DNA from: a virus
Reading direction: 5' to 3' (one strand)
Length of the DNA stretch: 22,422 nucleotides
IMG/VR virus record: IMGVR_UViG_3300046000_009961
Coordinates: 1 to 22,422 of that record
Shown here: positions 1,258-15,928 of the stretch, in pieces
Numbering within the stretch: the stretch's first letter is position 1
How the letters are laid out: every line of letters starts with the position of its first letter
The notes under the pieces: model-generated
Told to the model about the DNA's origin: nothing
The model's input: only the letters and a program-made list of their open reading frames with translations
The model's database searches: none
Position numbers and translations under genes: made by a program

Positions 1258-2169
1258 ATGGAAGAGATTAAATATACTATTTATAAACTTATAGATCCAA
1301 TATCTAATGAAATTAGATATATTGGACTAACATTTAACGACTTAAAACAAAGATTAAAATCTCATTGTTCTGAGAAATCTAAATCTCATAAATCTAATTG
1401 GATTAATCAATTAAAATCTAAAGGATTAAAACCTTTAATAGAATCTATTGAAGATGATATATCATCATATGATGATGTTTGTGAAAGAGAAATATATTGG
1501 ATTGATAAATATAAATCAGAAGGGCACCCTCTTACTAATATGGCATCAGGTGGAAATAAAAACAAGAAAATGTCAGATGAAACTCGGAAAAAAATGAGTT
1601 ATTCACACTTAGAAAGAAATAAAATATTTAAAAAAATACTCTCAGAATCAACTAAATTTTCAATAAGTAAATCATCTATCAAGAGATTTGAAAGTGAATA
1701 TGAAAGAGAAAAACTAAGAATATCTAATAAGAGATATGAGGATTCTAAAACAGAAGATCAGAAACTAAAAGATATTTTAATACAAAATTCTAAATCAGTT
1801 TATAAATATGATATTGATATGAATTTAATAGATATTTACCCATCAATAAATAATGCTGCTAAAATTAATAATTTGGAACAACGAAATATATCAAAGTGTT
1901 GTAAAAACATTTTTAGAATGGTTGGTGGATTTGTTTGGAGATTTGAAGGTGATTTAACACCAGTTGAGTATGTAGGTGGATCAGATAAATTTAGAGAAAT
2001 ATATCAATTTGATTTGAATAATAAATTATTAGCAAAATATGATAATGTTAAAATGGCTTCTAATGAACTAGGTATATTATCACAAGGTATTATAAATTGT
2101 TGCAAAGGTAAATACAAAACTTGTGGTGGGTATATATGGAAATATAAAAAATCGGTTTTAGAGGAATAA
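1258..2169 (+). CDS. GIY-YIG homing endonuclease with NUMOD repeats
   Basis: This is a site-specific DNA endonuclease of the free-standing homing type. The GIY-YIG domain occupies about residues 1-100: T-I-Y-K (7-10), Y-I-G-L (21-24), the catalytic-type Arg in K-Q-R-L-K-S-H (about 32) and the Glu in C-E-R-E-I-Y-W-I-D (about 76-84), followed by T-N-M-A-S-G-G. A short K-M-S-D-E-T-R-K-K-M-S segment (about 104-114) is typical of NUMOD3. Two NUMOD1-type DNA-binding repeats follow: S-V-Y-K-Y-D...G-F-V-W-R-F and E-I-Y-Q-F-D...G-Y-I-W-K-Y, each with an A-A/A-S helix and a C-C-K turn. It sits in the same orientation after the neck gene, which it may be using as its landing site. All domains appear intact. 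Confidence 0.9.
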   Translation: MEEIKYTIYKLIDPISNEIRYIGLTFNDLKQRLKSHCSEKSKSHKSNWINQLKSKGLKPLIESIEDDISSYDDVCEREIYWIDKYKSEGHPLTNMASGGNKNKKMSDETRKKMSYSHLERNKIFKKILSESTKFSISKSSIKRFESEYEREKLRISNKRYEDSKTEDQKLKDILIQNSKSVYKYDIDMNLIDIYPSINNAAKINNLEQRNISKCCKNIFRMVGGFVWRFEGDLTPVEYVGGSDKFREIYQFDLNNKLLAKYDNVKMASNELGILSQGIINCCKGKYKTCGGYIWKYKKSVLEE

Positions 2170-4525: not shown

Positions 4526-6274
4526 TTAAATCTTCTTTTCAAACTTTAATTGACCACAATCAAATATCTTATATGAACCAAATTCATCTTCCATTATTTT
4601 AGATTCGGAAAGTGATTTATCATATCCAATTTTAACTAAGTTAGACTTCTTATATCTTTGTTTATTAACTCTTCTTTTATCAATAAAATATGAATAGTTT
4701 GGATAACTAGTTGATGACAACTCAAATCCCAATTTGAAATAAAGGCTACCATTTGACCAAGACTTATCAGCAAACGATATAATTCTTTTAGGTTTTTTTA
4801 ATTTAATAAAGTAGTTTAATAATTTAGAAGCACCACCAATAACATTAACATTTAATTTATTACAAAATCTGGATAAATTCCACTCATTATCTTGCATTTT
4901 CTTACGACCTTCAAAATGGTCAAATGTCATTAAACTAACTAAGGTCTCTTCGTAAAAGAGGCCTATTTTTAATGAGGATGAAACATAACCTTGTATATGA
5001 CTATCATTTAAAAATGACTTTATTAATTTAACATCTTTAATTTCCTCAATTTTACATTTTCTAGCAAATATCTTATTATCAGAAATTCCTATCCAGTTTC
5101 TTATTTGGCTTTTTATTACATCACATTTAAAGGACCAATCATCTTCCCAAATATTTATAATTCTTATACCTCTTTTTCTAAAATGATCTAACTTATCTAA
5201 ATGATAGTTTTTTTGCTTAAATAATTCCGAGTGCCAATAAAGACCATTAAATTCAAATCCAATATTTAGATTAGGTAAGTAAATATCAATCTCTAATCCA
5301 TCTCTATAAGATCTAATAATTTCGCCATTATATATAGAACTTATAAATTCAAATACTTCAGTTTCCTTGAAAGATTGAGTATCTTCCACTTGATAACAAA
5401 CTGTACATTGTTTATTGTTTATACCCCTTCTAGCATGATATAAATGTGAGTTTGTAATATAACTATGTTCTTTATCACAATCACAATTCATCTCATATTT
5501 GCCAAATCCAATATACTTTATATAGTTAATATCACTGTTTAAATTTGTTTTTATATCACAATTGTGATATTTATCAAACATTATTTTTTTATATTCATCG
5601 GTTTTTGTATAGTTATCGACTCCCCATTTATATAGAGATGTTTCTTTGTATTTATTTATTATCTCATCTGATTTCATCGGGTGATTAACACCATATTTTA
5701 TTAAATTTGAATTTTTAATCTTATTCTTTATTTCTTCAGATTGAAATGGGTTTTGAACACCGTAGTTTTTTAATGTAGTTTTTATCTTTCTATCTTTTAT
5801 TATATCTAATTTTGATATATTATCAACTCCATACCTATCCACAAAAGTCTTTTTTGACTTTATATCTATTTCATTGTAATCTAAGTTTAATTTAGATAGA
5901 GATATTTTACTTTTAACAGAATCTAACTCTGATGTATTCTCAACACCATACTTATTTAGGTTATTTTTCTTATAATTTATTAATTTTTTTTCTATAAGAC
6001 TCAAATCTGAATTAGAACAAGATTTTGAACAATATTCTCTATACCCTCTTGATATAGATAAGAATTTAGTTTTCTTTTTACAAGACAAACACTCACCATC
6101 TTTATTACTTAATAAATATATTTTTTCAGATATACTTACTCCATTTTTATCTAAAATAAATTTATAAAGATTCGGTAAGTTAGATAGAACCCAAGAATCC
6201 TTAACTGAGTGAATGATTATCTTAGATAGATAAATATTATATTCTTTTTCAATTTCAAATGAGTTATTAAACAT
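4526..6274 (-). CDS. Vsr-like endonuclease with zinc ribbons, GVxN repeats and a GNAT/Mom-like C-terminus
   Basis: A 582-residue composite protein, probably a selfish homing-type endonuclease. Domains in order: a zinc ribbon with C62/C65 and C82/C86; five K/R/N-Y/W-G-V-x-N units at about 108, 147, 170, 193 and 216, likely DNA-binding; a second Cys set (C264, C266, C290, C293); a Vsr/PD-(D/E)xK-like nuclease at about 300-395 with E-I-D-I-Y-L-P and G-F-E-F-N-G-L-Y-W-H-S, then the Vsr-type ending R-I-I-N-I-W-E-D-D-W. The region about 400-535 resembles GNAT or Mom-like proteins (S-L-M-T-F, L-S-R-F-C, I-S-F-A-D-K-S-W-S-N-G-S-L-Y-F-K-L-G-F). The C-terminal tail G-S-Y-K-I-F-D-C-G-Q-L-K-F is shared with the protein at 14702. 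It is an island between nucleotide-metabolism genes, the usual setting for free-standing homing genes. Confidence 0.8.
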   Translation of the reverse strand: MFNNSFEIEKEYNIYLSKIIIHSVKDSWVLSNLPNLYKFILDKNGVSISEKIYLLSNKDGECLSCKKKTKFLSISRGYREYCSKSCSNSDLSLIEKKLINYKKNNLNKYGVENTSELDSVKSKISLSKLNLDYNEIDIKSKKTFVDRYGVDNISKLDIIKDRKIKTTLKNYGVQNPFQSEEIKNKIKNSNLIKYGVNHPMKSDEIINKYKETSLYKWGVDNYTKTDEYKKIMFDKYHNCDIKTNLNSDINYIKYIGFGKYEMNCDCDKEHSYITNSHLYHARRGINNKQCTVCYQVEDTQSFKETEVFEFISSIYNGEIIRSYRDGLEIDIYLPNLNIGFEFNGLYWHSELFKQKNYHLDKLDHFRKRGIRIINIWEDDWSFKCDVIKSQIRNWIGISDNKIFARKCKIEEIKDVKLIKSFLNDSHIQGYVSSSLKIGLFYEETLVSLMTFDHFEGRKKMQDNEWNLSRFCNKLNVNVIGGASKLLNYFIKLKKPKRIISFADKSWSNGSLYFKLGFELSSTSYPNYSYFIDKRRVNKQRYKKSNLVKIGYDKSLSESKIMEDEFGSYKIFDCGQLKFEKKI

Positions 6275-7355: not shown

Positions 7356-7390
7356 ATAAAACCCACTTCAAAAAAGTGGGTTTTATTTTT
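7356..7390 (+). terminator. Rho-independent terminator after nrdB
   Basis: The stem AAAACCCACTT (7358-7368) pairs perfectly with AAGTGGGTTTT (7374-7384) over a 5-nt loop, extends by two A/T pairs, and ends in a T-rich run. It separates nrdB from the next gene, whose AT box overlaps the end of the T-run. Confidence 0.85.
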
Positions 7391-7402
7391 AATATATATG
7401 TT

Positions 7403-7921
7403 ATGAAAATTTTAAGAGCTCGACTAAAACCTTATGGCGGTGTTACCGAATTCATATCTGTATCAGGTAGAATCAAAGGTCTTATTGATAAGAACAAAGG
7501 AGATGAGTTTCACTTTGTTATTGATAATGATGGTGTTAAAACTGTTAAAGAGTTTGGACCAGAAAATATCAACGAAGAATTAGTAGGTCAATCTATTAGT
7601 ATCTGTGATAGCCCTTGGTTAGCACAATTTAACGAAGACGGCACAGTTGATGTAGTAACTGAAACTAATGAATCTTTGCCTCGTCAACAAACAGTAGACC
7701 AATTAAAAAAAGTTATGAAGATGTCAGCTAAAACTGATATTGGTAATAGAATATCTGATATGAATAAACAAGGTGCTAATATTCAATATATTCAAAATCC
7801 AATTGATTCTGGTATTGAATCATATGAAGATTATGAAAAACACAATAAAAAATTTGTACCTTCTTGGAACTTAAAACATTTGTTAAGTCCATTTTCAGGT
7901 GAATCAAAAAAGAAGAAATAA
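7403..7921 (+). CDS. Hypothetical protein
   Basis: A 172-residue protein that I do not recognise. I chose the ATG at 7403 rather than an in-frame ATG... codon at 7376, because 7376 lies inside the terminator hairpin and 7403 follows a TTTTTAATATATATG box by two nt. The N-terminal half looks like a small beta domain (S-V-S-G-R-I-K-G-L-I-D, F-H-F-V-I-D-N-D-G-V). The C-terminal half is polar and ends in a lysine-rich tail (G-E-S-K-K-K-K). It lacks the MKYLK-type start of the genes that follow. The next gene starts one nt after its stop, so the two are probably co-transcribed. Confidence 0.6.
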   Translation: MKILRARLKPYGGVTEFISVSGRIKGLIDKNKGDEFHFVIDNDGVKTVKEFGPENINEELVGQSISICDSPWLAQFNEDGTVDVVTETNESLPRQQTVDQLKKVMKMSAKTDIGNRISDMNKQGANIQYIQNPIDSGIESYEDYEKHNKKFVPSWNLKHLLSPFSGESKKKK

Positions 7922-7922
7922 T

Positions 7923-8408
7923 ATGAAATACTTAAAACGATTTAACGAAGCATCATTTGATAGAATTGAAGAGTTCATTAAATTGGCTAATGCTATTATC
8001 AACTATGATGAAAGTGAATTAGAACAAGGTGATGAACCTTCTAATACTGATATTCTTTCTGAATTAGGTGATTTATGTAATGAATTAACATTTAGATCTG
8101 AAGAACTTCAACAAGTTATTAACAGTGGTCGTATATCTGATCCTAATAACTTCTTACAAATTATCTTAGATGAAACTTTAAGAGATGAAGAAGCTATGGA
8201 GAATGATGAAACACCTACTTTGAATACAGAAGATATTGAATCTAAAATTAAAGACGCTGCTTATAGTCTTAGAGGTTTTGGAACAATGACTAAAAATGCC
8301 GCTTTTATAAACGGTGCTAAATGGGTCATTCACAATCTAACAGATGCTGAAATAAAACATCTTAGAGAAAACTCAGATTCAGATGACCATAGTTTCTTTG
8401 GTCTATAA
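7923..8408 (+). CDS. Putative internal head protein with capsid-targeting N-terminus
   Basis: A 161-residue acidic, mostly helical protein of unknown function. I chose the ATG at 7923, giving MKYLKRFNEA; an in-frame ATG at 7899 lies inside the preceding gene. The first ten residues resemble the T4 internal-protein leader MKTYQEFIAE/A, and F-N-E/A fits the prohead protease pattern (hydrophobic-x-Glu, then a small residue). The rest has two helical segments (about 12-30 and 40-75) and an acidic linker; R-G-F-G-T-M-T-K-N-A-A-F-I-N-G-A-K-W (about 124-141) is the only distinctive stretch. Packaging in the head is inferred from the N-terminus and from five neighbours with the same feature. Confidence 0.65.
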   Translation: MKYLKRFNEASFDRIEEFIKLANAIINYDESELEQGDEPSNTDILSELGDLCNELTFRSEELQQVINSGRISDPNNFLQIILDETLRDEEAMENDETPTLNTEDIESKIKDAAYSLRGFGTMTKNAAFINGAKWVIHNLTDAEIKHLRENSDSDDHSFFGL

Positions 8409-8423
8409 AAATAATTAATATTT

Positions 8424-8711
8424 ATGAAATACTTAAAAACATTTGAAGCTTACGGACAATCATCAGATATTCACGAAGATATTGCTGTAAGTATATTAGC
8501 AGAATTAAAGAAACTTCAAGCTGAAAAAGGTTACTACACAGTAGAAGACTATGAAGCTTATATGAGAGAAAGAGGAGCTGACGATATTATGATCGATTCA
8601 GTTATGAATTATTTAGTAGGTATGGACTTTGGTTTTGATACAGAACCAGAAGAAGAACTACCAGAAGGCTGGGAAGACGAAATTAAATTAGTTTATAAAG
8701 ACGAAGAATAA
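8424..8711 (+). CDS. Small acidic putative internal head protein with capsid-targeting N-terminus
   Basis: A 95-residue protein starting MKYLKTFEAYG, the same opening as the gene 15 nt upstream; T-F-E/A would be the cleavage point. The body is strongly acidic with two helices (I-A-V-S-I-L-A-E-L-K-K-L-Q-A-E-K and V-E-D-Y-E-A-Y-M-R-E-R-G-A-D-D-I-M-I-D) and an E/D-rich tail. The E-x-Y-x-x-Y-M-x-x-R-G-x-D-x-x-x-I-D stretch could be a small helical protein-binding domain, but this is a guess. It is the last gene before a bidirectional terminator shared with the convergent RNA ligase gene. Confidence 0.6.
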   Translation: MKYLKTFEAYGQSSDIHEDIAVSILAELKKLQAEKGYYTVEDYEAYMRERGADDIMIDSVMNYLVGMDFGFDTEPEEELPEGWEDEIKLVYKDEE

Positions 8712-8739
8712 AAAAACCCACTCAAATGAGTGGGTTTTT
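8712..8739. terminator. Bidirectional terminator between convergent genes
   Basis: AAAAACCCACTCA (8712-8724) pairs perfectly with TGAGTGGGTTTTT (8727-8739). T-runs exist on both strands, so it can stop transcription from the gene ending at 8711 and from the RNA ligase gene ending at 8743. Confidence 0.85.
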
Positions 8740-8742
8740 CTT

Positions 8743-9831
8743 TTAGTTAATTTCCTCTCCGGTTTCTTTGTATGCCGGGTTGATGATTTTCAACCTAAGT
8801 TTAGTACCATCTTTAGCATCACGGTCAATGTAAGGACGAAGTACAACACCTTCACGGATATGTAATTCTTTACCAGACACTAACTCTTTTCCCTTACAAA
8901 GTTCTACGACATCTTTTGGAAGGATGAAGTCAACTCTTGTCTTACGGATTCCTCTTGACTCATCTTCGTAAAGAACTACTTCTTTAGATTCTAAGTTAAG
9001 AGTACCATCGTAAATGATTGGCACCCACAACGCTCTCAATTCATCAGGTACCATATCGTAAGGGATAGATTTACCATTTACCCTAACATCAAACAACCTT
9101 GCGGTTGGATTTGTTTGTCCATAGTTATATCCTTTTTGAACAGGAATAACTTCACCAAACACTTGAACAACACCTTCTGTAAAACTATTTCTAATCTTAC
9201 CAACGATGTTATCATTTTTAGATGCCATCCAGTATGTGTTTCCTTCTTCATCTTGTAAAGACAATCCGGCTTTTAACATACCTTTAGAACTTACAATCGT
9301 TTTCTCAGTTTCAATCTCATGTGCTAAGATGAATTGAGAACCGTGTACTTTCTCAGTGATAACAACTCTTTCACCTGGTACTAAATCATTGACATAAACA
9401 TTCGCATGTTCACAGTCGTGATTTCCAATGTGTGACATTTCAAATCGTGTCACACTTCCAGCCAAGTGAACTGGAATTGGTGGTTCGTATTTAGTTATAC
9501 CCAAGTCTTCAGAAATATCTACACCAACCGTGTAGCTTTCAAAGTTTGGAACTAAATGTTTAGGAATGATAATCCCAGAAGAGATTTCATTTCTAAGACG
9601 AACTGCCTTTACCCTGTCTTTATTAGGACCAGAAAGGTATTTTTCATACTCTGCTTTAAGCTGTCCGGTTAGAACAGATTTTTCAGGTGCGAAGATTACC
9701 TCGTCTCCGGTCACATAAAGACCTTTTTGAACTACTACTTGGTATGAACCAACCTTACCTAGTTCGAGAGCTTCTGCGTTTGGGTGAACGAATAGCTCGA
9801 TTCTTTCTTTAGATACTTTAAAATTACTCAT
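8743..9831 (-). CDS. ATP-dependent RNA ligase, Rnl5 / DRB0094 type
   Basis: This enzyme seals RNA ends (5'-phosphate to 3'-OH) through a covalent lysyl-AMP. The 362-residue protein has an N-terminal OB-like domain (about 1-130) and then a nucleotidyltransferase domain, the layout of the Deinococcus RNA ligase DraRnl. Motif I is E-K-V-H-G-S with the adenylated Lys161. Motif Ia is S-S-K-G (181-184), motif III Q-V-F-G-E-V-I (223-229), motif IV R-E-G-V-V-L-R-P near residue 330, and motif V L-R-L-K-I-I-N-P near 350. H-x-G in motif I, in place of the common D-G, is typical of this family. A tRNA 3'-end fragment lies just upstream of its start, and a 2H phosphoesterase is encoded by the second gene beyond, so a role in repairing cleaved tRNA is a reasonable inference. 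Confidence 0.85.
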   Translation of the reverse strand: MSNFKVSKERIELFVHPNAEALELGKVGSYQVVVQKGLYVTGDEVIFAPEKSVLTGQLKAEYEKYLSGPNKDRVKAVRLRNEISSGIIIPKHLVPNFESYTVGVDISEDLGITKYEPPIPVHLAGSVTRFEMSHIGNHDCEHANVYVNDLVPGERVVITEKVHGSQFILAHEIETEKTIVSSKGMLKAGLSLQDEEGNTYWMASKNDNIVGKIRNSFTEGVVQVFGEVIPVQKGYNYGQTNPTARLFDVRVNGKSIPYDMVPDELRALWVPIIYDGTLNLESKEVVLYEDESRGIRKTRVDFILPKDVVELCKGKELVSGKELHIREGVVLRPYIDRDAKDGTKLRLKIINPAYKETGEEIN

Positions 9832-9859
9832 AATTCTTTAATTTAATTTGTTTAACAAT

Positions 9860-9888
9860 CTGGGTTCGAGTCCGTCCTTGTGTCACCA
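9860..9888 (+). pseudogene. tRNA 3'-end fragment (T-loop and CCA)
   Basis: CTGGGTTCGAGTCC is a classic T-arm with T-loop TTCGAGT, and 12 nt later comes CACCA, a discriminator plus encoded CCA. Only the two stem pairs next to the loop are intact, and no D-arm, anticodon arm or 5' acceptor strand can be found in the A/T-rich sequence upstream. It is therefore a fragment, not a working tRNA. Unlike the tRNA-Gly at 15945 it carries CCA, which hints at a different origin. It could be a recombination scar, a decoy, or chance. Confidence 0.45.
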
Positions 9889-9968
9889 ATTAAATTCTAT
9901 CTAAGAAGAAATTAACAATACAAAGATATAAATTAATTTTGATTACACCAAATAATATATATAGATAT

Positions 9969-10400
9969 ATGAAATATCTTAAAAGTTTTAATGAATCAAT
10001 GGAAAATCAAATCTATAAGCAGGTTCTTGATACAATTAAAGATTGTTTTCAAGAATTTGAAGATAATGGTTGGTACTGGATATCAGATGTTTCTTATCCA
10101 GGTATATCTGTTTGGCAAAATCCAAACTTCAATTGTAGAATGATGAATAAAGAAGAATCTGATCCAAGAAACTGGACTCTAAATAAAAATCCTTACGAAA
10201 AAAACATTGATATTACCGGTGAAATTAAATCAGATGGTTCAATTAATTGGGAAATGAATGAAGACGAAACAGATAGCGAAGATGGTAAAGATTTCTTAGT
10301 TGCCGTAAAAAGATTACATGATGAAACTGGAATTGATTTTAGATTCTCATATAATAATAGAGGTGGTGAAAGAAGAATAATAATACAAGGTAGAATATGA
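9969..10400 (+). CDS. Putative internal head protein with capsid-targeting N-terminus
   Basis: A 143-residue protein of unknown function. The ATG at 9969 is preferred over an in-frame ATG at 9939 because it follows an AATATATATA stretch and gives the family opening MKYLKSFNES. The possible cleavage is F-N-E/S. The body begins with a helix (I-Y-K-Q-V-L-D-T-I-K-D-C-F-Q-E-F), then a W-rich segment (G-W-Y-W-I-S-D-V), and ends with a basic, beta-like tail (G-G-E-R-R-I-I-I-Q-G-R-I). It is the first gene of an operon whose members overlap by ATGA; its stop overlaps the next start at 10397. Confidence 0.65.
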   Translation: MKYLKSFNESMENQIYKQVLDTIKDCFQEFEDNGWYWISDVSYPGISVWQNPNFNCRMMNKEESDPRNWTLNKNPYEKNIDITGEIKSDGSINWEMNEDETDSEDGKDFLVAVKRLHDETGIDFRFSYNNRGGERRIIIQGRI

Positions 10401-11722
10401 TAATTAAAAACTATATACAATTTATAAAAGAATCAATTAACGGTCATAAATATGGATGTGTTATGATTGAAGTTCCTGTAAGTAACTGGAATGAAATAAC
10501 ATCATCTATTGATCCGGAAGACATATTTTATGGTGATGAAAATGATGATCCTAAAGGTGTTCAAGAAAATCCACATCTTACTATATTATATGGTTTACAC
10601 GATGATGTAACAGAAGACCAAGTTAAATCTGTATTTGAAGGATTCACTGATGATATTAATATAGAAGTTAATGGTGTTGGTATATTTGAAAATGATAAAT
10701 TTGATGTTGTTAAGTTTAATGTAAACCCAGATGGTGCTTTACAACATTTACATGATGAGTTATCTAAGTTTCCTAATTCAGACCAATTTCCTGATTACAA
10801 ACCGCATATTACTATTGCTTATGTTAAGAAAGGAATGGGTAAGAAATATGTTAAACCTGATTATAAATACGAAGTTAAGAATGTCAATAAGATTACATAT
10901 TCAATGCCTGATGGTACAAAAACAGAATTTGAATATAATAGTGGTTTAGTAGAATCATTGAATGAAAATAAGATGTGGTATAAAACTATTCCACAAATAT
11001 TAGAATGGTTAGAATCTAAATCAAAAATGCCTTGGTTGTGGATAGATACCGAGACAACTGGATTAGGTGGTCCTAAACAACAACAATTAACTCAAGTATC
11101 TGCTTTATCAACAGATTATAATTTTGCTTCAAATACTTTTAACGAATTAGGATTGTTTGATGAGAAGATTAAATTAACTGATGAAACTAAATCTAAATTT
11201 AGTACACCAGAAGATAGAACTAAATGGGTTTTAGGATTCAATCATTATGGTTCAGGTAAATACAAATATAAAAATGAACAAGAGATATTAAATCAGTTCT
11301 TTGATTGGATTGGTAACTATGAACCTTGTTTATTAATAGCACAGAACGCAGGTTTTGATATGGCTATGTTGGCTGGTAGATATGGTCATAAAATTAAGAA
11401 TGAAGTATTTGATACTAAGATGTTAATTCAATTATACTACTTACCACTTTTACAAAAATTATCTGAAGGAGATTCTAAATATAAAGATATGATTGATTTT
11501 ATTGGAAAGTCAACAAGAGATGGTGGTTTAATCTCATCTTCTATGTCTAAAGTAGGTCCAGCTCTTGGAATTAATATGACTAACTATCATGATGCTTTAA
11601 CAGATGTAAAGATAACCATAGAGATGTATCAAAAGATAGTTGAGTTCTTAAAGGAGAATCAAGAAGTTGATATTATGAAATATCAATCTGAAAGAATAAA
11701 AGTTATTAAATCAAGTAAATGA
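10397..11722 (+). CDS. 2H phosphoesterase - DEDDh 3'-5' exonuclease fusion with capsid-targeting-like N-terminus
   Basis: A 441-residue two-enzyme protein. Residues 1-13 (MIIKNYIQFIKES) resemble the capsid-targeting leader, with possible cleavage I-K-E/S. Residues about 18-180 form a 2H phosphoesterase: two H-x-T motifs, H60-L-T62 and H137-I-T139, the second in P-H-I-T-I-A-Y. This fold includes 2'-5' RNA ligase-like enzymes, cyclic phosphodiesterases and the anti-CBASS protein Acb1. Residues about 210-415 form a DnaQ-like exonuclease: D217-T-E219 (W-I-D-T-E-T-T-G), N-A-G-F-D321, and Y-H398-D-A-L-T-D403. Every catalytic residue of both domains is present. It is coupled by ATGA to both neighbours. 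The substrate is unknown: RNA ends, cyclic nucleotides or single-stranded nucleic acid are all possible. Confidence 0.85.
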   Translation: MIIKNYIQFIKESINGHKYGCVMIEVPVSNWNEITSSIDPEDIFYGDENDDPKGVQENPHLTILYGLHDDVTEDQVKSVFEGFTDDINIEVNGVGIFENDKFDVVKFNVNPDGALQHLHDELSKFPNSDQFPDYKPHITIAYVKKGMGKKYVKPDYKYEVKNVNKITYSMPDGTKTEFEYNSGLVESLNENKMWYKTIPQILEWLESKSKMPWLWIDTETTGLGGPKQQQLTQVSALSTDYNFASNTFNELGLFDEKIKLTDETKSKFSTPEDRTKWVLGFNHYGSGKYKYKNEQEILNQFFDWIGNYEPCLLIAQNAGFDMAMLAGRYGHKIKNEVFDTKMLIQLYYLPLLQKLSEGDSKYKDMIDFIGKSTRDGGLISSSMSKVGPALGINMTNYHDALTDVKITIEMYQKIVEFLKENQEVDIMKYQSERIKVIKSSK

Positions 11723-12555
11723 AACATTTAAAGAGCATAAATGAAAGTCTAAATACTACTACTTTGGCAAAAGACGAAGTAATTGAGATACTTACGAAAA
11801 AATGTAAGAAATTTCTTAATTGGGGAAAAGAATATACTGAAGATTGTTTAATTTATAGAAAAGATGAAAATCGTGGTGACTTTTTATTAGTTAATCCAAA
11901 GATTTCATCACAAGATAGAATTGCTCCTTATGCTTCTAAAAACTATCACAACTTACTAATCTCTAATTTAGAATCTTGGAAAGACTGGCCCAGAAGAAAC
12001 AAATCTTTGATTTGTGCTTCTTCATATAGAGCATTGTCACATGGTTCTGGATCAGTTGATTATGTTATTATTCCTTTTGATGATACTATGGTAGCCACTG
12101 GTGATAGAGGTGATTTTTGGAATTGTTTTTCAAATCTACCAAAAGATGAAGATTTTACAGAGGAAGAGATGGATAGACCATCAATTGCTTATTATATGAC
12201 ATCACTTGTTCATGAATTAGACAGAGATGTTAAACCATCATTAAATACAAATTGGAATGAACTAAAATCGTTTTTAGAAGAATCAGAAGCATCTGAACAG
12301 ATAATAAGTAAATACTTTACAACTGATTATGAAGTTTTGTGGGATGATAATCTAAACCTATTAGAAAACTTAAATATACTATTAAACCCTAAAAGTAATA
12401 ATTTCAAACTGACAGATATAACAGGCGTAATGAATCTTTATTCTCAACTTGATACAAATGAATCAGAAGCTAGCGAATCTTGGTTTGAAGATGAGTCAAT
12501 AATGATAAGACTTGATAAAATAACAGAAATATTAAAAGAACTTAACTTAGAATGA
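11719..12555 (+). CDS. Putative internal head protein, possible ADP-ribosyltransferase-like domain
   Basis: A 278-residue protein opening MKHLKSINES, with possible cleavage I-N-E/S. The middle has three segments reminiscent of ADP-ribosyltransferases: L-I-Y-R (44-47) in place of the Y-R-G motif, P-R-R-N-K-S-L-I-C-A-S-S (91-102) in place of the S-T-S motif, and D-Y-V-I-I-P-F-D-D-T (114-123), followed by G-D-F-W-N-C-F. A clear catalytic E-x-E is not visible, so the enzymatic call is weak. T4 also packages and injects an ADP-ribosyltransferase (Alt), which makes the idea attractive in this context. The C-terminal third is acidic and helical. The start overlaps the previous stop by ATGA, as does the end with the next gene. 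Confidence 0.6.
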   Translation: MKHLKSINESLNTTTLAKDEVIEILTKKCKKFLNWGKEYTEDCLIYRKDENRGDFLLVNPKISSQDRIAPYASKNYHNLLISNLESWKDWPRRNKSLICASSYRALSHGSGSVDYVIIPFDDTMVATGDRGDFWNCFSNLPKDEDFTEEEMDRPSIAYYMTSLVHELDRDVKPSLNTNWNELKSFLEESEASEQIISKYFTTDYEVLWDDNLNLLENLNILLNPKSNNFKLTDITGVMNLYSQLDTNESEASESWFEDESIMIRLDKITEILKELNLE

Positions 12556-13454
12556 AATACTTAAAGAAATATAAAATATTTGAATCTAAAGGAGAATCTA
12601 ATCTCTATGGTATTCACGATTGGATTGAAGATCTTAAATCTTGGGAATGGAGCAGAACTCAAAATCAAGTAGTGAATGAATCATCATTAAAGAAATGGTC
12701 TGATCATTTTATTGGCGAAGGTTATTATGAAAAAGTTGTCAATAATGTTGATAGAATATTTGAAGCCTTAAAGAAAGTTGATGAAGAAGAAATTCATATG
12801 AGAATGTATGATGTTTATGACCAAATACCTTCTAGTAAAGATAAATGGACTATGTGTTGTGTTGCTTATGGTGATGTAGAGAACTATAATAAACCAGATA
12901 GAAATAAGTATAATGGTTTAGTTACAGTAAAAAATAAAGATTCAAAAGATAGATTAAGAATAATTATTCATATTCTAAAAGATATAGTTTTTCCGACACT
13001 TTATATTGGCACTTGGCCCAATATGATGTTAAGACAAAGTGATGGGAGTTATTATGTAACTGATAAAAAATGGCAATGTCAAAACTTTAATATTGATGAT
13101 TATCAAGAAATGGGTATTAAATCAGGTGCTGAATTTGATACAGATGATTACAAAGGTAGAAAAGTTACAATCTATCAACATGATATAGATAAGAAAAAAC
13201 AATATTCTATTGATAAGATAATTAGTATGTATGTACCAGCTGTTGTTATTGAGATTGGTAATAGAGATAATTCAATTGCCTCTGGAGGTATTAATCTTAA
13301 AAAGATAGAGTTAATGATAGATGATGCTTTAGAATCTGTTTTACCAACACTTGATTATAAAGAAGTGGTATTTGATATGGCAAGATTCGATAGACAGTTT
13401 GATGATGATAAGGATATCTATGATTATACAGTAAAAATATTACTAAACTTCTAA
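12552..13454 (+). CDS. Putative internal head protein of unknown function
   Basis: A 300-residue protein opening MKYLKKYKIFES, with possible cleavage I-F-E/S. No known domain is recognised. Visible features are a Trp-rich helical N-terminal part (W-I-E-D-L-K-S-W-E-W), a central beta-rich part (W-T-M-C-C-V-A-Y-G, T-L-Y-I-G-T-W-P-N), and a later V-P-A-V-V-I-E-I-G-N-R-D-N-S segment. It is the last gene of the ATGA-coupled operon and is followed after 29 nt by a clear terminator, so the operon ends here. Confidence 0.6.
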   Translation: MKYLKKYKIFESKGESNLYGIHDWIEDLKSWEWSRTQNQVVNESSLKKWSDHFIGEGYYEKVVNNVDRIFEALKKVDEEEIHMRMYDVYDQIPSSKDKWTMCCVAYGDVENYNKPDRNKYNGLVTVKNKDSKDRLRIIIHILKDIVFPTLYIGTWPNMMLRQSDGSYYVTDKKWQCQNFNIDDYQEMGIKSGAEFDTDDYKGRKVTIYQHDIDKKKQYSIDKIISMYVPAVVIEIGNRDNSIASGGINLKKIELMIDDALESVLPTLDYKEVVFDMARFDRQFDDDKDIYDYTVKILLNF

Positions 13455-14701: not shown

Positions 14702-15928
14702 ATGATATTAAGTAATAAAATTTTAGTTAAAAGTAGCAAATATTATAATAAATTGGGATATGATATATCTGAAAAATATATAGAAATTAAAATATCGGAT
14801 TTACCACATGGATCTCATGTTAAAATTGAGGCTAAGTGTGATTATTGTATAAATACAAAGGAAATTTCCTATAAAGAATATAATAAAAATATATCAATAA
14901 ATAATAAGTTTTCTTGTTCTATAAAATGTGGTTGTTTGAAGTCCAAAGAAACCAATTTAGAAAAATATGGGGTTGAGTCAACTAATCAATTGGATTCAAA
15001 AAAGGAAAAGTCTAGAAAAACAACAAAGGAAAAATGGGGAGTAGATCACATTTCACAAATAGAATCTATAATAGAATCAAAGAGGATGAAAATGATTGAA
15101 AGGAGAGATGATATTTCAAAAAAATCTAAAGAATATTGGAACAACATAAGTGAGTCGGATCTTGTAAAGATTAATGATAAAAGAATCATTACTAATTTAG
15201 AAAGATATGGATTTGAATATGTTTCTCAAGTAAAAGAATTTAAGGATAAAATAAGAGAAACTAATTTACAGAGATGGGGAGGATATACATATCAATCATG
15301 TGTTCTAATGAATAAAGTAATATCAACTAATTTAGAAAGATGGGGAGCGACAAATTCATCATGTTCAGAAACTATAAAAGAAAAGGTTAAAGAGACTAAT
15401 TTACAAAAGTATGGTTGTCACCCGTCAAAAACGGATAGTGTTAAAGACAAACAAAAGGAGACTGTTAAAATAAAATGGGGAGTTGATAATATAATGTTTC
15501 TTAGCCAAACTAGGGAAATATTAAAGAATAAAATGATAGAAAAATGGGGAGTTGATAGTTATTTTAAAACTCTAAAATTTAAAGAAAGTAAATTATATGA
15601 TTTATTTTCAGATGAAAAATACAGAAAAGATAATTTTATCATATCAAAGAACGCTAACTATATTAGATACTTGGGTAATAATTTATCAGAGTTTAATTGT
15701 GATAGGAACTTAAATCATAATTTTGTTATTAATAGTGACGTTTTTTTTAGTAGAAAATCCAAGTATTTGGTAAGTGGAAAGAGAATAAACAAACAACAAT
15801 TCACTAAGAGTAAACTTAAAAAGAGATTAATTGATACTACTGGTAGTGAGAATTCCATAACAAAATCAATGGGAATTTATAAAATATATAATTGTGGTAA
15901 ATTAAAATTCCAACTTTTATTAAATTAG
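14702..15928 (+). CDS. Zinc-ribbon/GVxN-repeat protein lacking the nuclease domain
   Basis: A 408-residue relative of the protein at 4526-6274. It has a Cys set (C46/C49, then C72/C76), about eight K/R-Y/W-G-x-x-x units (near 88, 111, 168, 191, 213, 236, 258 and 281), a segment N-Y-I-R-Y-L-G-N...F-N-C-D (319-334) matching N-Y-I-K-Y-I-G-F...M-N-C-D of the relative, and the same C-terminal ending G-I-Y-K-I-Y-N-C-G-K-L-K-F. After F-F-S-R-K-S-K-Y (348-355) it passes directly to K-R-I-N-K-Q-Q-F (360-367), which corresponds to R-R-V-N-K-Q-R-Y about 250 residues later in the relative. The Vsr-like and GNAT-like parts are therefore missing as one in-frame block. It is an intact reading frame, probably a DNA-binding remnant or a regulator. 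Confidence 0.75.
   Translation: MILSNKILVKSSKYYNKLGYDISEKYIEIKISDLPHGSHVKIEAKCDYCINTKEISYKEYNKNISINNKFSCSIKCGCLKSKETNLEKYGVESTNQLDSKKEKSRKTTKEKWGVDHISQIESIIESKRMKMIERRDDISKKSKEYWNNISESDLVKINDKRIITNLERYGFEYVSQVKEFKDKIRETNLQRWGGYTYQSCVLMNKVISTNLERWGATNSSCSETIKEKVKETNLQKYGCHPSKTDSVKDKQKETVKIKWGVDNIMFLSQTREILKNKMIEKWGVDSYFKTLKFKESKLYDLFSDEKYRKDNFIISKNANYIRYLGNNLSEFNCDRNLNHNFVINSDVFFSRKSKYLVSGKRINKQQFTKSKLKKRLIDTTGSENSITKSMGIYKIYNCGKLKFQLLLN

Follow-up and report, generated by a model that had tools for sequence, protein, structure and literature searches.

What does it mean that six genes lying close together in a phage genome fragment encode proteins that are otherwise unlike but begin in nearly the same way? 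The genes lie at 7923-13454 of the window, by which we mean the whole stretch of DNA analysed, an IMG/VR record taken in its entirety (22,422 bases). A sequence-only reading had proposed that this common N-terminus serves for capsid targeting, like that of T4 internal proteins, and that the proteins are packaged in the head and injected with the DNA. The window is a 22 kb piece of a huge phage genome of the 'Mahaphage' type, and it encodes an NrdB with 83% identity to the NrdB of the 642 kb genome LR756502.1. Complete phage genomes of 634, 636, 642 and 735 kb have been described, the largest being placed in the 'Mahaphage' clade, and Bacteroidetes hosts were predicted for five genomes above 634 kb (PMC7162821). 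The phage of the window presumably infects a member of the Bacteroidota.

All six N-termini singled out by the earlier reading were found in their places in the window (Table 1), each with a Glu at residues 8-12 (P1 of the predicted cleavage site) followed by Ala or Ser, and the proteins behind them are indeed unrelated. Described as neighbours, the genes are clustered but not strictly contiguous, since a leaderless RNA ligase gene on the opposite strand lies among them; the four genes from 9969 to 13454 form a run in which stop and start codons overlap. For the genes at 7923 and 9969 the longest open reading frame opens upstream (GTG 7899 and TTG 9939, respectively), and the leader starts at an internal ATG.

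Table 1 Features of the window and the protease-scaffold genes compared with it. Arrows mark predicted cleavage sites.
Feature	Coordinates	Strand	Description
Leader protein 1	7923-8408	+	161 aa; MKYLKRFNE↓A; body without known function
Leader 1 coding sequence	7923-7949	+	P1 Glu at residue 9
Leader protein 2	8424-8711	+	95 aa, acidic; MKYLKTFE↓A
Leader 2 coding sequence	8424-8447	+	P1 Glu at residue 8
RNA ligase gene within the cassette span	8743-9831	-	PF09414, 4.6e-15; no leader
Leader protein 3	9969-10400	+	143 aa; MKYLKSFNE↓S
Leader 3 coding sequence	9969-9995	+	P1 Glu at residue 9
Leader protein 4	10397-11722	+	441 aa; T4-type leader MIIKNYIQFIKE↓S, 2H phosphoesterase, DEDDh exonuclease
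Leader 4 coding sequence	10397-10432	+	P1 Glu at residue 12
Leader protein 5	11719-12555	+	278 aa; MKHLKSINE↓S; phrog_12810 family, no known function
Leader 5 coding sequence	11719-11745	+	P1 Glu at residue 9
Leader protein 6	12552-13454	+	300 aa; MKYLKKYKIFE↓S
Leader 6 coding sequence	12552-12584	+	P1 Glu at residue 11
Protease-scaffold fusion genes	L019:5272-7371, L084:5342-7480		Scaffold-like region of about 10 almost identical repeats of 14 residues (YSEYIAENLDKNIA), a possible cleavage site lying in every one

Using a two-block leader model trained on 101 seeds from LR756502.1, with a main threshold score of at least 12, we obtained scores of 21.9-26.6 for five of the window leaders, and no other window gene scored above 0.8. 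Shuffled N-termini yielded 0.04 leader genes per window, versus the 5 found among 26 genes. The sixth leader, that of the gene at 10397, was missed by this model and fits the T4-type rule. P3 is hydrophobic (F/I-x-E), as the T4 rule requires, in five of the six leaders and T in the remaining one; T at P3 is a regular sub-class among the leaders of relatives.

In this clade the leader has the consensus MK[HY]LKxY(KI)FE↓S or FNE↓S. It is a genuine, modular element under selection as a peptide, and hundreds of unrelated proteins carry it. Single linkage divided 264 leader proteins into 234 unrelated body families; the proteins came from LR756502.1, LR756504.1, the window and G001, an independent 281 kb IMG/VR contig that was held out from model training and is a fragment like the window. 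The information content reaches 3.9 bits at the P1 Glu, drops to 1.0 at P1' and stays below 0.3 past P2'. Among 100 N-termini starting M[KR][HYFW][LIV][KR], 96 have a Glu at positions 7-14, where 43 would be expected. The string MKHLK is encoded by 12 DNA versions, the P1' Ser is encoded by all six of its codons, and codon use at Glu, Asn and Ser tracks the genome background, indicating that it is the peptide and not the RNA that is under selection. A mild bias was seen at codons 2-4, of a kind that is common near start codons. Selection at the DNA level was rejected on this codon evidence.

Comparison of orthologs showed how leader and body part company. After the Glu, the bodies of W01 385173 (MKYLRTYE↓GFDHL) and W04 43366 (MIIKKYIKFINE↓EFDHL) are 83% identical, and their leaders belong to different classes. 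Orthologs of the 12552 product keep the body while their leaders differ (MKIIKKYNHFINE↓N, MNMKIKTYSLFLE↓S), such that three different leaders precede a variable linker and then the conserved body. Some orthologs of leader proteins carry no leader. In W01/W04 orthologs that both have class-A leaders, leader identity is 0.69, versus 0.34 for random pairs, which suggests that most leaders are inherited and that swaps are occasional. The number of body families, the end of conservation after the Glu and the swapped leaders bear out the expectation that conservation of the N-terminus is independent of that of the body. We also observed a second complete leader in mid-chain in two proteins, L009:2663-3577 (LR756502.1 22663-23577) and G001 242296-243606 (MKYLKAYKLFES, MKYLKLFES), which may be polyprotein-like or recent gene fusions.

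The earlier suggestion that the leader could be used to find further cargo proved fruitful, although counts are approximate since genes were called by a simple longest-ORF procedure. LR756502.1 carries the leader on 134 of 999 genes at a score of at least 12, against 0.9 in shuffled sequences, and on 146 at a looser threshold, where about 4-5 calls are expected to be false. The G001 contig has 50 leader genes among 412 at score 12 (0.3 shuffled; range 50-56), and LR745206.1 has 81 among 642 over 395 kb (0.5 shuffled; range 81-92), a count which, like those for LR756501.1 and Lak, refers to part of a genome. In LR756504.1, 37 of 946 genes have the leader, and the 735 kb phage has it on 7 of 563 at score 12, over 400 kb. 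Among the complete relatives, the tagged fraction reaches roughly one gene in seven. Prevotella Lak-A2 is a Mahaphage and had none among 491 genes at score 12 over 400 kb (5 versus 2.4 shuffled), so the leader is not universal in that clade. This leader type is likewise absent from Tenacibaculum phage pT24 (0/307 genes at score 12).

A degenerate pattern at the DNA level matched 38, 35 and 16 times in LR756502.1, LR745206.1 and G001, respectively, and 0-5 times in twelve other phages; the reversed pattern, used as a control, had no match in any phage. Two leader patterns matched 70 and at least 111 stretches of IMG/VR. There, 157 of 164 leader starts opened a frame of at least 60 codons, and 158 leader proteins fell into 88 body families.

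In the mechanism we propose, the 8-12 residue leader would attach a protein to the prohead's scaffold core, on it or within it, as the head is assembled. A gp21-like (S77) protease, made as one chain with the scaffold, would then cut after the Glu ([I/L/F/Y]-x-E followed by S, A or N), and would cut the capsid protein and the scaffold at sites of the same kind. The freed bodies would remain in the head beside the DNA until infection, when they would pass into the host.

A gp21-type protease, the enzyme for which a search had been recommended, is encoded in the complete relatives, with one S77 match each in LR756502.1, LR756504.1 and pT24; in the huge phages the match (E 4e-6 to 2e-5) falls short of the Pfam threshold. 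A profile built from all three proteases had T4 gp21 (5jbl) as its sole match in the PDB (E 0.006), and no other profile searched against the PDB gave a match. GE..HP and SSR, which are conserved in the S77 proteases, align with the T4 catalytic His and Ser regions, and we take these residues to be catalytic. Neither a protease gene nor a capsid gene was found in the window or in G001, both of which are fragments.

In both huge phages, the protease chain continues into a scaffold-like region with about ten YSEYIAE↓NLDKNIA repeats and 37 occurrences of [ILFY]xE, versus 18 in shuffled sequence, and a gp23-type capsid gene directly follows. A protease-scaffold fusion is likewise annotated in PTm1. 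The N-terminus of the capsid protein contains an invariant I-x-E before N or S, and further relatives have capsid-protein sites of the form I/M/L-x-E followed by N, S or D. At P2, leaders prefer F or N, versus A in the scaffold repeats. Yet another leader flavour, MIKxFKLFE↓S, occurs in the 735 kb phage; such lineage-specific flavours, spread across the unrelated genes of one genome, are the expected product of a common machine that recognises them.

The cultivated Sphingomonas phage PAU offered a comparison with annotated head proteins. Its capsid protein is homologous to that of the huge phages, and by N-terminal sequencing the mature protein keeps 520 of its 585 residues (PMC5646251); the site that we predict, ALME↓N, would leave 521 residues, one off the published value. 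The leader of PAU has another flavour, MKT[LI]xxLYE followed by A or S, and several times fewer carriers than that of the huge phages (19/289 genes, null 0.03), the scaffold being one of them. Of five proteins annotated as 'internal capsid protein', labels for which the PAU record gives no basis, three carry the leader by rule (P 0.002), and gp270 (MKGLHNLYE↓A), which breaks the rule at its third residue alone, is a fourth by eye. Nicknames such as 'mango' and 'banana' suggest that real PAU particles have been studied. We found no description of the PAU leader in the open-licence literature searched.

Judged on these comparisons, the shared N-terminus is very probably a T4-type capsid-targeting sequence, mediating prohead docking, cleavage after the Glu, head packaging and injection. 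This agrees with the earlier reading, which each sequence-based test favoured. We infer from this that the leader proteins are present in the virion, lose their leaders and are injected. Counting against this reading are the acidity of the leader bodies, the weak protease match and the P2 mismatch between leaders and scaffold, as well as a few carriers, such as a lysozyme and a Toprim protein, that are not obvious takeover proteins. A leader that acts as a scaffold- or capsid-docking helix, packaging proteins but staying uncut, would account through docking alone for the modularity and the genome-specific flavours. However, such a helix has no need for a fixed Glu-small pair at its end. A cleavage site, by contrast, would be expected to have a near-invariant Glu and conservation that breaks off at P1'/P2', as seen here, and to resemble the capsid-protein site, which shows the same I-x-E↓N pattern. 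We therefore consider an uncut helix improbable.

The leader might instead be a signal of another kind, such as a degron, an enhancer of translation start or an address for a membrane or phage compartment, as its short, lysine-rich, N-terminal character and the slight codon bias behind the start would allow. This too is unlikely: codon use points to selection on the peptide, the leader lacks a hydrophobic stretch, and the analogous PAU leader sits on annotated internal capsid proteins and on the scaffold. Finally, leader genes are often adjacent (72 pairs versus 21 under shuffling), as expected if they were recent duplicates sharing an N-terminal domain. With so many unrelated body families, a likeness that ends about two residues past the Glu and shuffled sequences that yield about one leader per genome, duplication or chance resemblance can already be rejected for the vast majority of leader genes, and we regard it as very improbable overall.

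The capsid-targeting reading places these proteins beside the T4 internal proteins IPI-III, which also have an MK... leader ending in hydrophobic-x-Glu before Ala or Ser on unrelated, fast-changing bodies. The statement that all three begin MKTYQEF holds for IPII and IPIII but not for IPI, which begins MKTFKEFTSTTTPVSTITE↓A; on 65 T4 genes, the T4-type rule picked ipII and ipIII only. T4 and the relatives of the window phage further have in common a gp21-type protease and a gp23-type capsid protein bearing a comparable site. The leader genes are accessory, only 3 of 146 in LR756502.1 having a homologue in LR756504.1 versus 179 of 853 other genes (p 2e-10), and T4 internal proteins are accessory as well (PMC3012670). 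In contrast to the three proteins of T4, some 130-150 genes are involved in LR756502.1, and the huge phages have their own leader consensus and a protease fused to the scaffold. Moreover, lysines mediate the DNA contacts of T4 internal proteins (PMC3012670), whereas the leader bodies are acidic (median net charge per residue -0.036, versus -0.012 for other proteins) and unrelated to them by the profile searches run. The leader bodies of LR756502.1 and G001 were also poorer in cysteine than the rest of the same genome.

Phages phiKZ and SPN3US provide another parallel, as huge phages whose inner-body or ejection proteins include many head-loaded proteins cut after x-x-Glu. SPN3US has about 50 head proteins, eight of which are processed, with cuts after A-x-E (PMC5694885). 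Unlike in the phages described here, no short leader on more than 100 unrelated proteins has been reported for them in the literature examined. The leader strings gave nothing relevant in the open-licence literature, and a term search of jumbo-phage reviews brought up no such leader. The mechanism would belong with the T4 capsid-targeting sequence, while its spread to roughly a seventh of the genes appears to be new, being undescribed in the open-licence literature searched.

On balance, we favour the view that one lineage of huge Bacteroidota phages has made the T4 capsid-targeting sequence into a general delivery tag, so that the products of roughly a seventh of all genes (some 130-150 proteins) would be loaded into the head, trimmed and injected in finished form. 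The load would fit: one copy each of the 146 trimmed bodies of LR756502.1 amounts to about 2.7 MDa, well below the 15-20 MDa of the phiKZ inner body (PMC5694885), so head capacity is no obstacle. Such a set would be the largest virus-delivered protein arsenal known to us, nearly all of it without known function, and genes would gain, lose and sometimes swap the tag, each phage lineage keeping its own flavour. More than 100 anonymous proteins of the largest known phages would become a defined, testable class of candidate injected proteins. Delivery before any phage gene expression would make them a natural place for anti-defence or takeover functions, and the leader bodies may indeed counter host defences or serve host takeover, as the 2H phosphoesterase at 10397 might. 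The tag would also give a sequence handle on the head-loaded proteins of huge phages and possibly a means to tag chosen cargo. Finally, T4, PAU, the 735 kb phage and this clade form a comparative series for the joint drift of prohead protease and leaders.

Pfam searches gave few matches among the leader bodies (lysozyme, SET, GNAT, NUDIX and Toprim) and no function for most. A GH16 match (W01 146862) was set aside as most likely a start-site false positive. In L032:9926-10687, a phage lysozyme domain (PF00959, 4e-23) follows the leader and about 100 extra residues. The commonest leader family in the IMG/VR matches (15/158; L109, L125, L126, L130, L158 and others) starts LYHGNRKGDFPP...FAGAIFLTS and is ADP-ribosyltransferase-like by eye, and the leader protein at L119:3491-4237 is kinase-like by eye (GRGGNAMVFEIP...VLRLKK...DPSKPNNFLID); neither had a Pfam match.

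Among the leader proteins of the window, a function could be read only for the 10397 product. Its 2H phosphoesterase domain, of the Acb1/2'-5' RNA ligase superfamily, has both motifs (HLT 60 and HIT 137), and matches PF13563 (2'-5' RNA ligase superfamily) above the cut-off (5.2e-11) and Pfam Acb1 at E 2e-5 (24.8 bits; cut-off 27). The C-terminal domain is a DEDDh 3'-5' exonuclease (DTE 217, FD 320, HDA 398). Two possible protease sites lie between the domains (LVE↓S 184-187 and LNE↓N 188-191), at which the protein could be cleaved into two inside the head. The G001 ortholog consists of the 2H domain alone. Acb1 of T4 (57B), an anti-CBASS 2H phosphoesterase, shares both H-x-T/S motifs with the 10397 product but has neither a capsid-type leader nor a DEDDh exonuclease domain; its gene adjoins ipI, yet is leaderless. 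A putative signal-degrading enzyme that arrives ready-made would suit early counter-defence.

Leader protein 1 is akin to leader proteins of LR756502.1 (W01 425031) and LR745206.1, leader protein 2 has a relative with a leader in LR745206.1, and the G001 ortholog of leader protein 3 also bears a leader (MKHLKRFNE↓N). For the 11719 and 12552 products, AlphaFold modelling reached mean pLDDT values of 39 and 37.5, respectively; the 11719 product might be a candidate ADP-ribosyltransferase. In L001, an 8424-type body is fused C-terminally to a homologue of the 7376 product, with an internal KIKRFHE↓S sequence. The gene at 7376-7921 is itself a leaderless neighbour of the cassette, and its LR745206.1 homologue is fused behind a leader-bearing segment. 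Three other leaderless window genes, at 4526-6274 (-), 14702-15928 (+) and 1258-2169 (+), resemble mobile-element endonucleases by eye, two of them with repeated KYGV-type motifs and one being GIY-YIG-like.
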